64,000 nucleotides of DNA from Streptomyces antimycoticus (GTDB lineage: Bacteria; Actinomycetota; Actinomycetes; Streptomycetales; Streptomycetaceae), in the NCBI RefSeq assembly GCF_005405925.1, contig NZ_BJHV01000001.1, positions 3,224,001-3,288,000 on the forward strand. Direction: 5' to 3'. A model generated the notes under the pieces. The model ran no database searches, was not told the DNA's origin, and saw only the letters and a list, made by a program, of their open reading frames with translations. Positions 3,093-54,778 of the stretch are shown one piece after another (within the stretch, counting starts at the first letter, position 1; each line of letters opens with the position of its first letter). The position numbers and the translations under genes are program-made.

Positions 3093-4869
3093 ATGGCGGT
3101 TTCCGTAACCCTGCCGGCGCTCGGCGAGAGCGTGACCGAGGGCACCGTCACCCGCTGGCTCAAGGCCGAAGGTGAGCGCGTCGAGGCCGACGAGCCCCTG
3201 CTCGAGGTGTCGACCGACAAGGTCGACACCGAGATCCCGGCCCCTTCGGCCGGTGTGCTGACGTCCATCAAGGTGGCCGAGGACGAGACGGTCGAGGTCG
3301 GCGCCGAGCTGGCCGTTATCGACGACGGAGGCGCGGCCCCGGCCGAGGCCCCCGCCCCCGCGGCCGAGCCCGCTCCGGCGGCTCAGCCCGAGCCCGCCCC
3401 GGCGCCCGCCGCCGAGGCCCCTGCCCCCGCACCCGCCCCTGCCGCCGCCGCTCCGGCCGGTGGCGCCGAGGGCACCGATGTGGTCCTGCCCGCGCTGGGC
3501 GAGTCGGTGACCGAGGGCACCGTGACCCGCTGGCTCAAGGAGGTCGGCGAGTCCGTCGAGGCCGATGAGCCGCTGCTCGAGGTCTCCACCGACAAGGTCG
3601 ACACCGAGATCCCGGCCCCGGTCGCGGGCACCCTGCTGGAGATCCTGGTCGGCGAGGACGAGACCGCCGAGGTCGGCGCCAAGCTTGCCGTGATCGGTAC
3701 GGCCAGTCAGGGTGCCGCCGCTCCGGCCGCCGCGCCCGCCCCGGCCGCCCCGGCCCCGAGCCGGTCCAGGAGGCCCCGGCGCCCGCCCCGGCCCCGCAGG
3801 CCCCGAGCGCCCCCGCGCCGCAGGCCGTCACCCCGGAGCCGGTCGCTCCCGAGCCGGCCCCGGCCGCTCCGGCGCCCGCCCCGGCTCCGGCCGCGGCCCC
3901 GGCCCCGGCCGCCCCCGCTCCCGCGGCCCCCGAGGCCGAGGGCGCCTACGTCACCCCGCTGGTGCGCAAGCTGGCCGCCGAGAACAACGTGGACCTGTCC
4001 ACCGTCAAGGGCACCGGCGTCGGCGGCCGCGTCCGCAAGCAGGACGTCATCGCCGCCGCGGAGGCCGCCAAGGCCGCCGCCCAGGCCCAGGCCGCCCAGG
4101 CCGCCCCGGCCGCCGCCGCGCCGAAGGCCGCCCCCAGGCGGCGTCCCCGCTGCGTGGCCAGACCATCAAGATGCCGCGGATGCGCAAGGTCATCGGCGAC
4201 AACATGATGAAGGCCCTGCACGAGCAGGCGCAGCTCACCAGCGTGGTCGAGGTGGATGTCACCAAGGTCATGCGGCTGCGCGCGCAGGCCAAGGACGCGT
4301 TCGCCCAGCGCGAGGGCGTCAAGCTCTCGCCGATGCCGTTCTTCGTGAAGGCCGCCGTCCAGGCGCTGAAGGCCCACCCGGCCGTCAACGCCCGGATCAA
4401 CGACGACGGCACCATCACGTACTTCGACGTGGAGAACGTCGGCATCGCGGTGGACGCCGAGAAGGGCCTGATGACCCCGGTCATCAAGAACGCGGGCGAC
4501 CTCAACATCGCCGGTATCGCCAAGAAGACGGCGGAGCTGGCGGGCAAGGTCCGCTCCAACAAGATCACCCCGGATGAGGTGTCCGGCGCCACCTTCACGA
4601 TCAGCAACACCGGCTCGCGCGGTGCGCTGTTCGACACGATCATCGTGCCCCCGAACCAGGTCGCCATCCTGGGCATCGGCGCGACCGTCAAGCGCCCGGT
4701 GGTCATCGACCACCCGGAGCTGGGCGAGACCATCGCGGTGCGCAACATGACGTACGTGGCGCTCTCCTACGACCACCGCCTGGTGGACGGTGCCGACGCG
4801 GCCCGCTACCTGACGGCCGTCAAGGAGATCCTGGAGACCGGTGAGTTCGAGGTGGACCTCGGTCTCTGA
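3093..4869 (+). CDS. sucB: Dihydrolipoyl acyltransferase (E2), frame broken twice
   Basis: E2 core of the 2-oxoglutarate (possibly shared 2-oxoacid) dehydrogenase complex. Restored length is about 592 residues. Domain order: lipoyl domain 1 (residues 1-80, TDKVDTE lipoylation site), Ala/Pro/Glu linker, lipoyl domain 2 (about 129-205, same motif), second Ala/Pro linker, E3-binding domain (about 3950-4060), and the catalytic domain ending with the HRLVDG active-site motif. No single frame encodes this. One base is missing at about 3757 and another at about 4135, both beside C runs in the linkers, so three frames are used in turn (3093-3757, 3758-4135, 4136-4869). All domains are otherwise intact, so I read this as sequence error rather than a pseudogene. 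A strong terminator follows. Confidence 0.9.
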
Positions 4870-4897
4870 GCCCTCCGAGGATCCCTCCGAGGCAGTG

Positions 4898-52125: not shown

Positions 52126-54778
52126 CCCCCGGCCGCGTAGACGGCGACCGTACGGCCGGGCACCGTGAAGGTGCCACTCGCGCGCTCGTAGCGGGACGTC
52201 TTCACCGTGGCGTCGGCGCCGTGCGCCTGGATCGGATGGAGGGCGTACGGGCTCCCGGCCAGGGCGGGGACAGTCTGCGACTGCCGGGACGGGGTGGCGT
52301 TGAAGACCACGACCAACCCGCCGAGCCGCATGGTGATGACGCCCGGCGTCTCCCCCGTCCCGGACAGCGGGAAGGACAGCGCCTTCTGCACCCCCTCCGC
52401 CGTGCCCTGGCTGAACGCCTTCTCCGTGGTGCGGATCCGCAGCAGATCCCGGTAGGCCGCCGAGGCGCCCGTGATCTCGGGGCAGCCGGGGCGTGCCGCC
52501 GGGTTGGTCAACAGGGGTTTGGCGTACGGCCACTTGGGCTCGTTGTCCGCCGCCGGGGCAGTCCCCGGCCGAAGCCGTTGCCGGACGCGCAGTCCCAATG
52601 GATGGCGTTGAACCAGTCCCCGCTGTCGAAGGAGTTGCGGTCCAGCGACTTCGAGCGCAGCAGGTCGGTGCCGGCCTGGCTGAGCGCCGGGCCCTGGGAG
52701 AGGGTGGCGGTGGCCAGGGCCAGCACCTGTGCTCGGGCCCGGTCGGCGGCCGAGGTGGCGGCGGGCAGCTTGTAGACGAGCGCGTCGTAGAGGGTCTCGT
52801 TGTCATGGGCGTCGGCGTAGGCGAGCGCGTCACCGGGGGCGGCGGCGTAACCGGCCGGGGAGCCGTTGTAGTCGACCTCGGAGCCCTTGACCCGGCGTCC
52901 GCCGCTGTCGGTGAAGGCGTAGTCGGCGAGGTTGCCGGAGAGCCCGACCTTGATCAGGTCCTGAGCGTGCAGCAGCCGGGCCCGCTGCTCGTCCGGGCTC
53001 CCGTTGGCGGGCGACCCGTTGGGGTCGGTGAAGAGCCCGGTGGCGAAGCCCTGGACGCGGGGGTCCTCGTCGAACGGCCCGCCGCCGCGCACCGCGTCCC
53101 GCGCCCGGTCGCTGAAGGTGGCGATGCCGGTGCCGGCCATATTGCGCTGGGTGGCCTGGACGAAGCGGGCGTCGTCGGCCACCTCGCCGAAGTTCCAGCC
53201 CTCGCCGTAGAGGATGATCGACGTGCCGTCCACCCCGTCCTTGGCGGGGGTCAGGGCGTCGAGGGCCTTGCGTACGGCCACGATATTGGCCTTGGGGTGG
53301 TGGCCCATGAGGTCGAAGCGGAAGCCGTCGACCTTGTACTGCCTGGCCCAGGTGACGATCGAGTCCACCACCAGCTTGCCCATCATCGCGTGCTCGGGCG
53401 CGGTGCCGGGGCAGCAGGTGGAGGTGGCCAGGCTGCCGTCGTCCAGCAGCCGCTGGTAGTAGCCGGGCACGATCCGGTCGAGCACCGACTTCTCGTCCTG
53501 CCCGGCCGCCACGGTGTGGTTGTAGACCACGTCCATGACGGTGCGCAGCCCTGCGTGGGCCAGGCCCTGGACCATCTGCCGGAACTCGCGGGTGCGGGCC
53601 GGGCCGTCCGGGTCGCCGGCGTAGGACCCTTCCGGCACGGTGTAGTGCAGCGGGTCGTAGCCCCAGTTGAAGCCGTCCTTCGCGGCCGTCTCGGCCACGC
53701 ATTTCTGCTGCTGGTCGGAGTCGGCGGGCAGGGCGGCCAGATCGCAGCCGGGCCGGGCCTGGTCGGACCGCCACTCCGGGACGGTGCCGAAGTCGAAGGC
53801 GGGCAGCAGGTGGACGTACGAGGTGCCGGACCGGGCCAGCCGCCCCAGGTGCCGCATCCCGTCCGAGTCGCGGTCGGTGAAGGCGAGGTACTGGCCGGGG
53901 TGGGCGCTGGTGCGGTCCGCGATGGAGAAGTCGCGGATCTGCAGCTCCTGGATGCGGGCGTCGCGCAGCGGGACGGCCTTGGGCTTCTTCAGCGCGGCCC
54001 AGCCGGCGGGAGCCAGCCGGGGGTCGGCCAGGTCGGTGACCAGGCTACGGGCGGAGTCGGCGGTCAGGGCGGTCGAGTAGGGGTCGGTGACCTCGTTGGT
54101 GACGGTCTTGCCGACGCTCGGCGCCCAGACCTCGACCCGGTAGCGGTAGGGCTTGTCCCGCCAGTCGGGGTTGCCGGTCACGCTCCACACCCCGCTGCCG
54201 GGGTCCCGCCGCATGGCGACGGTGCGCCCGTCGAGATCGAGCGACACGGACCGGGCGGTCGGCGCCCATACCGAGAGGGTGGGGCGGGCCCCGTGGAAGA
54301 CCGGGCCGAGGCGGGCCGAGCGCGCCCGGTCCGCGTAGAGGTCGTCCAGGACGCCGGGGATCTGTACCCCGGTGCGGTGCAGTACGTGGTCGTGGTCGTC
54401 GGCCGCGCGCTGGACGGCGGCGAGTGGGCCGCGCAGCGCCGTGGCGGCCTTGTCGCGGTCGCGCGGGTCGAGACGATAGGCGGGACGGCCGGCCAGATGG
54501 GGGTAGGCGGCCTTCTGGGCGTCGGTCAGGGAGGCCGGGGTCAGCCGCAGGGTGCCGCCGTCGGCGTAGCTCAGCTCCTCGACGGTCTCGGCGGTGTGCT
54601 CGGCCTGCCAGACGACGGTGGCGCGGTCGATCCACTGCGCCTCGGCGGGCGCCGCCTTTGCGGTGGCGGGCGCCGCGGCCCGGGCCGTCTGCGATACGGC
54701 GGGCACGGCCGCCGCGCCCAGTGCCAGAGTGGCGAGCGCGGCGGCCGTGCGAAAGAGGGTGGCTCTCGGGGGCTTCAC
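52122..54778 (-). CDS. pulA: Secreted type I pullulanase, one frameshift
   Basis: Debranching enzyme for alpha-1,6 links of pullulan and limit dextrins; about 885 residues when restored. A signal peptide (TLFRTAAALATLALGAAAVP) is followed by N-terminal modules, then the GH13 barrel with NWGYDPLHYTVPEGSY (the type I pullulanase signature), VMDVVYNH, VDGFRFDLMGHH (nucleophile Asp), YGEGWNFG (acid Glu) and AYADAHDNETLYD. One base is missing in the four-G run at 52555-52558 (plus strand). I chose the GTG at 54778, 40 bases after the amylase stop, so the two genes are probably one transcript. Its TAG stop lies inside the CTAG target site of the insertion sequence. Confidence 0.92.

Follow-up and report, generated by a model that had tools for sequence, protein, structure and literature searches.

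A 64,000-nt stretch of the Streptomyces antimycoticus chromosome (assembly GCF_005405925.1, contig NZ_BJHV01000001.1, hereafter C1, positions 3,224,001 to 3,288,000 of the forward strand), here called the window, carries a series of single-base frame breaks. Comparison with the sequences of close relatives indicates that nearly all of them are very probably residual consensus errors of a long-read assembly that had no short-read correction, or too little of it. Since nearly all of the breaks look like reading errors, in which a base was dropped from a G or C run, rather than real mutations, no biological meaning should be read into them. The proposed course of events is simple. Base calling would under-count G/C runs, mostly those of about 4–6 bases; the consensus would keep the too-short count; and each shortened run lying inside a gene would shift the reading frame. 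The cause would thus lie in the type of read or in the consensus step.

The original prediction, that residual homopolymer error underlies the breaks, is upheld by an excess of losses in all three chromosome places compared, by the hits in coding DNA, by the codon pattern kept past the breaks, and by the splitting of secY and tsaD. The artefact is an ordinary one, but it serves as a warning to users of the assembly. Whatever is drawn from its 11.17 Mb in the way of gene calls, counts of pseudogenes, or predicted pathways is unreliable, even though completeness is stated as 99.98%. Here, a comparison with two close relatives, broken down by the coding status of the site and the sign of the indel, told error from natural slippage without recourse to reads.

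Genomes Compared and Counting Rules

The window's own genome, G000, consists of 11.17 Mb in three contigs, of which C1 has 10,917,594 bases. The protein product of one window gene is 87–91% identical to those of S. violaceusniger, S. iranensis, S. endocoffeicus, and S. rugosispiralis, and the names of these relatives point to a place for G000 in the S. violaceusniger group. When 199 genomes of the genus, G000 included, were searched with the sucB region, the closest were G055 and G165 (97%), followed by G096 (93%) and G069 (86%); the fragmented draft G150 also reached 97%, over part of the region only. G096 is S. asiaticus DSM 41761, which its genome report describes as a PacBio assembly corrected by Pilon with Illumina reads (PMC8407293).

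Segments of 80 kb each from G055, G165, G096, and G069 were compared with the window, and the alignment covers most of it. A separate observation concerns a segment of about 2.5 kb, at about 57026–59484, that has no alignment longer than 400 bases in any of the four. It extends into an ORF for a Fis-type regulator (58133–59599), in which a Pfam search at 1e-5 matched the AAA+ lid and HTH_8 but did not find the AAA+ core.

In the three-way count, G000 is set against its two nearest relatives, G055 and G165, and an event is private to one genome when both others agree. A private event is coding when a gene-like ORF is present in both other genomes. A simple script, identical for all genomes, picked out the gene-like ORFs from their GC by codon position; the coding counts are approximate, because some of these ORFs may be shadow ORFs. 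The four-way count takes in G096 as well, demands agreement of all three other genomes irrespective of coding status, and spans about 54 kb per genome. Three places were counted: the window (about 57 kb per genome), a core of 331 kb around rpoB (L122–L141), and a third place of 108 kb near 8.4 Mb. Totals over the three, added by hand, come to 497 kb for G000, 500 kb for G055, and 497 kb for G165. The core distances are 0.0313, 0.0315, and 0.0263, and the G000 branch is about 1.4 times as long as that of either relative. The binomial tests given below use branch lengths derived from these core distances for all three places.

Frame Breaks in the Window

Fifteen breaks had been predicted, and syntenic relatives back 14 of them. 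Pairwise alignment of the same loci from close relatives, a check that had been proposed with the prediction, reveals differences of a single base at the runs in question, in most cases relative to more than one relative together. The expectation of one missing base each is borne out at 11 sites (3753, about 4130–4135, 12235, 13269, 13443, 22006, 25612, 38644, 39080, 45836, and 52554), where there is a net one-base shortfall against both G055 and G165 in DNA that is gene-like in both. In the four-way count, 9 of the 11 shortfalls survive, i.e., the Illumina-corrected G096 sides with the other relatives there, as does one gain (see below). At the remaining two, 3753 and 39080, G096 differs by several gaps.

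sucB, encoding a dihydrolipoyl acyltransferase whose orthologue in G055 contains lipoyl, E3-binding, and catalytic domains, is broken twice on the plus strand. Both breaks, at 3753–3757 and 4130–4135, are one-base shortfalls relative to G055 and G165; the second survives the four-way count and faces uninterrupted copies in relatives. Upstream, the catalytic frame is open for at least 345 aa in 10 of 11 copies from the genus and for 150 aa in the window; in the eleventh copy it is open as far as the end of the contig. The G150 frame is likewise open across the second break, back to the start of its contig.

Six further genes have one-base shortfalls that also stand in the four-way count. These are an NAD-dependent epimerase with DUF1731 (12235–12240, plus strand), a flavin amine oxidase family protein with two breaks (13269–13274 and 13443–13449, plus), an RDD family protein (22006–22010, minus), a winged-helix (Trans_reg_C) regulator (38644–38648, plus), a GH89 (NAGLU) protein (45836–45840, plus), and a pullulanase (52554–52558, minus). 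The gene first named TPM-like (25612–25624, minus) also shows a one-base shortfall; its product has 450 aa in G055. Pfam families were as expected in the intact orthologues of 11 of the 12 genes searched, the exception being this TPM-like gene, which matches no family at 1e-5.

The description of the breaks as full-length genes split apart fits most of them, but two genes are not truly split. The MMPL shortfall lies at the very end of the gene (39080–39100, minus), where the stop is lost and the ORF runs on longer. The GH89 break falls in the N-terminal signal region: the ORF of the body is full-length in the window, and what is gone is the SRR-type signal of the relatives, presumably Tat-like. 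In the TPM-like, MMPL, and MFS genes, the predicted positions miss the break by 8–20 bases.

The TetR regulator (30417–30421, minus) is a case apart, as the site is in a linker of variable length. Set against G055, G165, G096, and G069 in turn, the window has a net length difference of +20, −10, +14, and +47 bases. All four values are congruent modulo 3, and the orthologue frames agree: the G055 and G165 proteins match the window in two frames. The break in a small membrane ORF (42950–42970, plus), predicted near 42960, is the one that could not be confirmed, as only G165 aligns across it, with no gap nearby and a spacing that differs further on.

A GNAT acetyltransferase gene (11350–11354, minus) had been singled out as the exception to the missing-base rule, and correctly: it has one extra base at 11350 relative to G055 and G165, the sole one-base excess on the list and the gain that survives the four-way count. 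This gain, an error or a real lesion, falls outside the under-count bias, and it may be a real lesion; it needs no error, because gains in G000 are not clearly above those of the relatives. A mixture, in which most breaks are errors and one or a few are genuine, overlaps with the reading of nearly all breaks as consensus error, and we give it somewhat less than an even chance. The chief candidates for genuine lesions would be the GNAT gain and the remnant of an MFS transporter gene (15165–15180, minus), whose break appears when the DNA is aligned with either G165 or G096, but splits the protein frame relative to G165 only. The MFS gene favors a mixture in that it matches the C-terminal part only of the MFS profile. 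At GNAT, however, an over-call and a true insertion look alike in every test made.

Programmed ribosomal frameshifting at the runs has the run context in its favor and nothing more. Wherever orthologues can be compared, the relatives encode the same proteins in one frame, and the affected genes are unrelated to one another, which makes this alternative vanishingly improbable.

Counting all private events in the window extends the comparison from the listed sites to the whole alignment. In the three-way count, one-base coding losses number 13 in G000, 1 in G055, and 0 in G165, with one-base coding gains of 1, 1, and 0 (about 57 kb each); the G000 losses are more than chance would give. Of these, 11 losses and the gain had been predicted, whereas the losses at 11845 and 24873 had not. 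The 11845 difference is seen against G055 and G165 and not against G096 or G069, so the change may be older. The site at 24873 is an additional private one-base shortfall, relative to G055, G165, and G096, and its coding status is uncertain. In the four-way count, G000 has 14 private frame-changing indels (ten one-base losses, three one-base gains, and a single five-base event), compared with 3 for G055, 1 for G165, and 19 for G096, in about 54 kb each. The G096 events are left out of the rates because they are unsorted by coding status and because G096, as the outgroup, has a longer branch.

Losses and Gains at Three Chromosomal Places

The imbalance seen in the window recurs elsewhere on the chromosome. 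Private one-base coding losses in G000, G055, and G165 number 44, 3, and 0 in the core and 12, 2, and 1 in the third place. Pooled with the window, they come to 69, 6, and 1 (binomial p 5.7e-20), against pooled coding gains of 9, 5, and 4 (p 0.28). G000 thus has a clear excess of losses without an excess of gains at all three places, and among the three genomes it is confined to G000. With branch lengths weighted in, natural events would account for about 5 of the 69 losses.

Losses that are not coding in both other genomes number 42 in G000, 21 in G055, and 24 in G165 (pooled). The ratio of coding to other losses is 69:42 in G000 versus 7:45 for G055 and G165 combined (Fisher p 3.6e-9). Once the natural rate, scaled by branch, is subtracted, the G000 ratio is about 64:11, near the gene-like fraction of 0.79–0.80. 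Whereas the natural indels of the relatives avoid coding DNA, the G000 losses do not.

These counts bear on the main biological alternative, that the breaks are real and recent frameshifts, arising either in a slippage-prone strain or under relaxed selection that is turning genes into pseudogenes. Many actinobacteria lack MutS-type repair, which makes slippage plausible. The breaks do sit in slippage-prone runs, as do the natural indels of the relatives, and G000 is also richer in coding indels of other sizes. On the other hand, one-base gains show no clear excess and coding DNA is not spared. The codon pattern also argues against real frameshifts, with less weight if the breaks are very young. 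Past the first break, the third-position share of private substitutions is 0.645, versus 0.629 in intact genes (p 0.38); the codon pattern persists beyond the breaks, with none of the loss of constraint expected of pseudogenes, a weak point if the breaks are very recent. Before the break, the share is 0.560 in G000, 0.568 in G055, and 0.562 in G165, all below that of intact genes. This low share is a property of those parts of the genes rather than decay, since G055 and G165 show it as well.

The excess of one-base losses in G000 is about 0.15 per kb. Extrapolated to the whole genome, the coding losses beyond the natural ones would amount to about 1,400 (1,445) false genic breaks, roughly one per 8 kb, in line with the warning that automated gene calls in this genome would be unreliable. 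As real lesions, some 1,400 broken genes are scarcely compatible with a living strain. Taken with the broken secY and tsaD (see the section on core genes), this leaves real frameshifts very unlikely.

In-frame coding indels private to G000, G055, and G165 number 45, 15, and 16 in the core, 5, 1, and 6 in the window, and 7, 4, and 11 in the third place. The core (L122–L141) thus has an in-frame excess in G000 of about three times either relative, above the expectation from branch length, that is absent from the window and the third place. Coding indels of other frame-changing sizes, pooled by hand, number 10, 4, and 2. Single-base under-counting does not explain the in-frame excess of the core or the excess of other sizes.

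Run Context

That the breaks sit in G/C runs, as the original prediction stressed, is correct, but the argument is weak when taken alone, since most losses in the relatives are in runs too. In the core, 59 of 77 one-base losses in G000 fall in G/C runs of at least 3; the corresponding figures are 14 of 19 for G055 and 8 of 14 for G165. Run context was therefore rejected as proof of error: the natural losses of the relatives favor runs equally. In the core, with coding and other DNA taken together and hand-scaled to the covered length, the loss rate in G000 is about 0.2, 0.7, 2.4, and 3.8% for written G/C run lengths of 3, 4, 5, and 6 (18, 19, 19, and 3 events). This rise is not specific, because the few natural losses of G055 rise as well (7, 4, and 3 events).

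Core and Essential Genes

One-base sites within genes of the core number 46 (43 losses and 3 gains), spread over 40 distinct genes. The family search covered 37 of the 40 core orthologues, i.e., all except L166:12691-13158, L145:848-1612, and L153:13293-14315. By NCBIfam names assigned to the intact G055 copies, breaks lie inside the matched domains of genes that include secY, rpsD, tsaD, ilvD (two breaks), and proC.

Two of these, secY and tsaD, count as essential genes. In a whole-genome search, each of five genomes has one secY, which is in two pieces in G000 and whole in all four relatives. For tsaD, such a search finds a single full-length copy in every one of the four relatives and two pieces in G000, of which the first is counted with one stop codon passed over. 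It could be proposed that the strain truly bears hundreds of run-length frameshifts and survives because transcriptional or translational slippage yields sufficient SecY, TsaD, and SucB, a scenario that we consider extremely unlikely. Residual consensus error would account for the split secY and tsaD as it would for the breaks in the window.

rpsD was considered as proof of error and rejected, as an intact second copy (S4) exists at L185 (G000:C1:8445457-8446053); this second rpsD is present in all five genomes searched. nuoK, mqnE, and nuoL are poor evidence: the nuoK and mqnE breaks miss the family domain that was matched, and that of nuoL comes in the opening 3% of the gene. rpoB is intact in G000.

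Precedents

Errors of this kind have been described in other Streptomyces genomes. For S. albus SM254, the report gives 205 indels left after Quiver polishing and before short-read correction, nearly all in G/C homopolymers (PMC4832174). For three Streptomyces strains from disease-suppressive soil, PacBio-only and Illumina-corrected assemblies are stated to differ by 70, 295, and 335 SNP/indels, the vast majority being single-base insertions in homopolymers (PMC6923854). As these sources describe them, SM254 and the soil strains share with G000 a high GC content and single-base run-length errors, with frameshifts as the consequence. More broadly, long-read-only bacterial assemblies are said to usually retain errors, of which homopolymer length is the commonest (PMC8812927).

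The paper on Kastor describes gene-fragmenting deletions at runs, commonest at 4–5 bases, that create many false pseudogenes, and states that ortholog-based completeness may overestimate the quality of long-read assemblies (PMC12007338). G000 resembles those cases in its deletions at runs, its false pseudogenes, and a completeness value that flatters the gene set. It differs in that the Kastor cases, as presented there, are MinION assemblies, and in the main example deletions at A/T runs outnumber those at G/C runs about two to one. The difference from SM254 is one of degree: the figure of about 0.15 excess losses per kb for G000 is several times that of SM254 before correction, for which 205 indels in 7.17 Mb (PMC4832174) work out at roughly 0.03 per kb.
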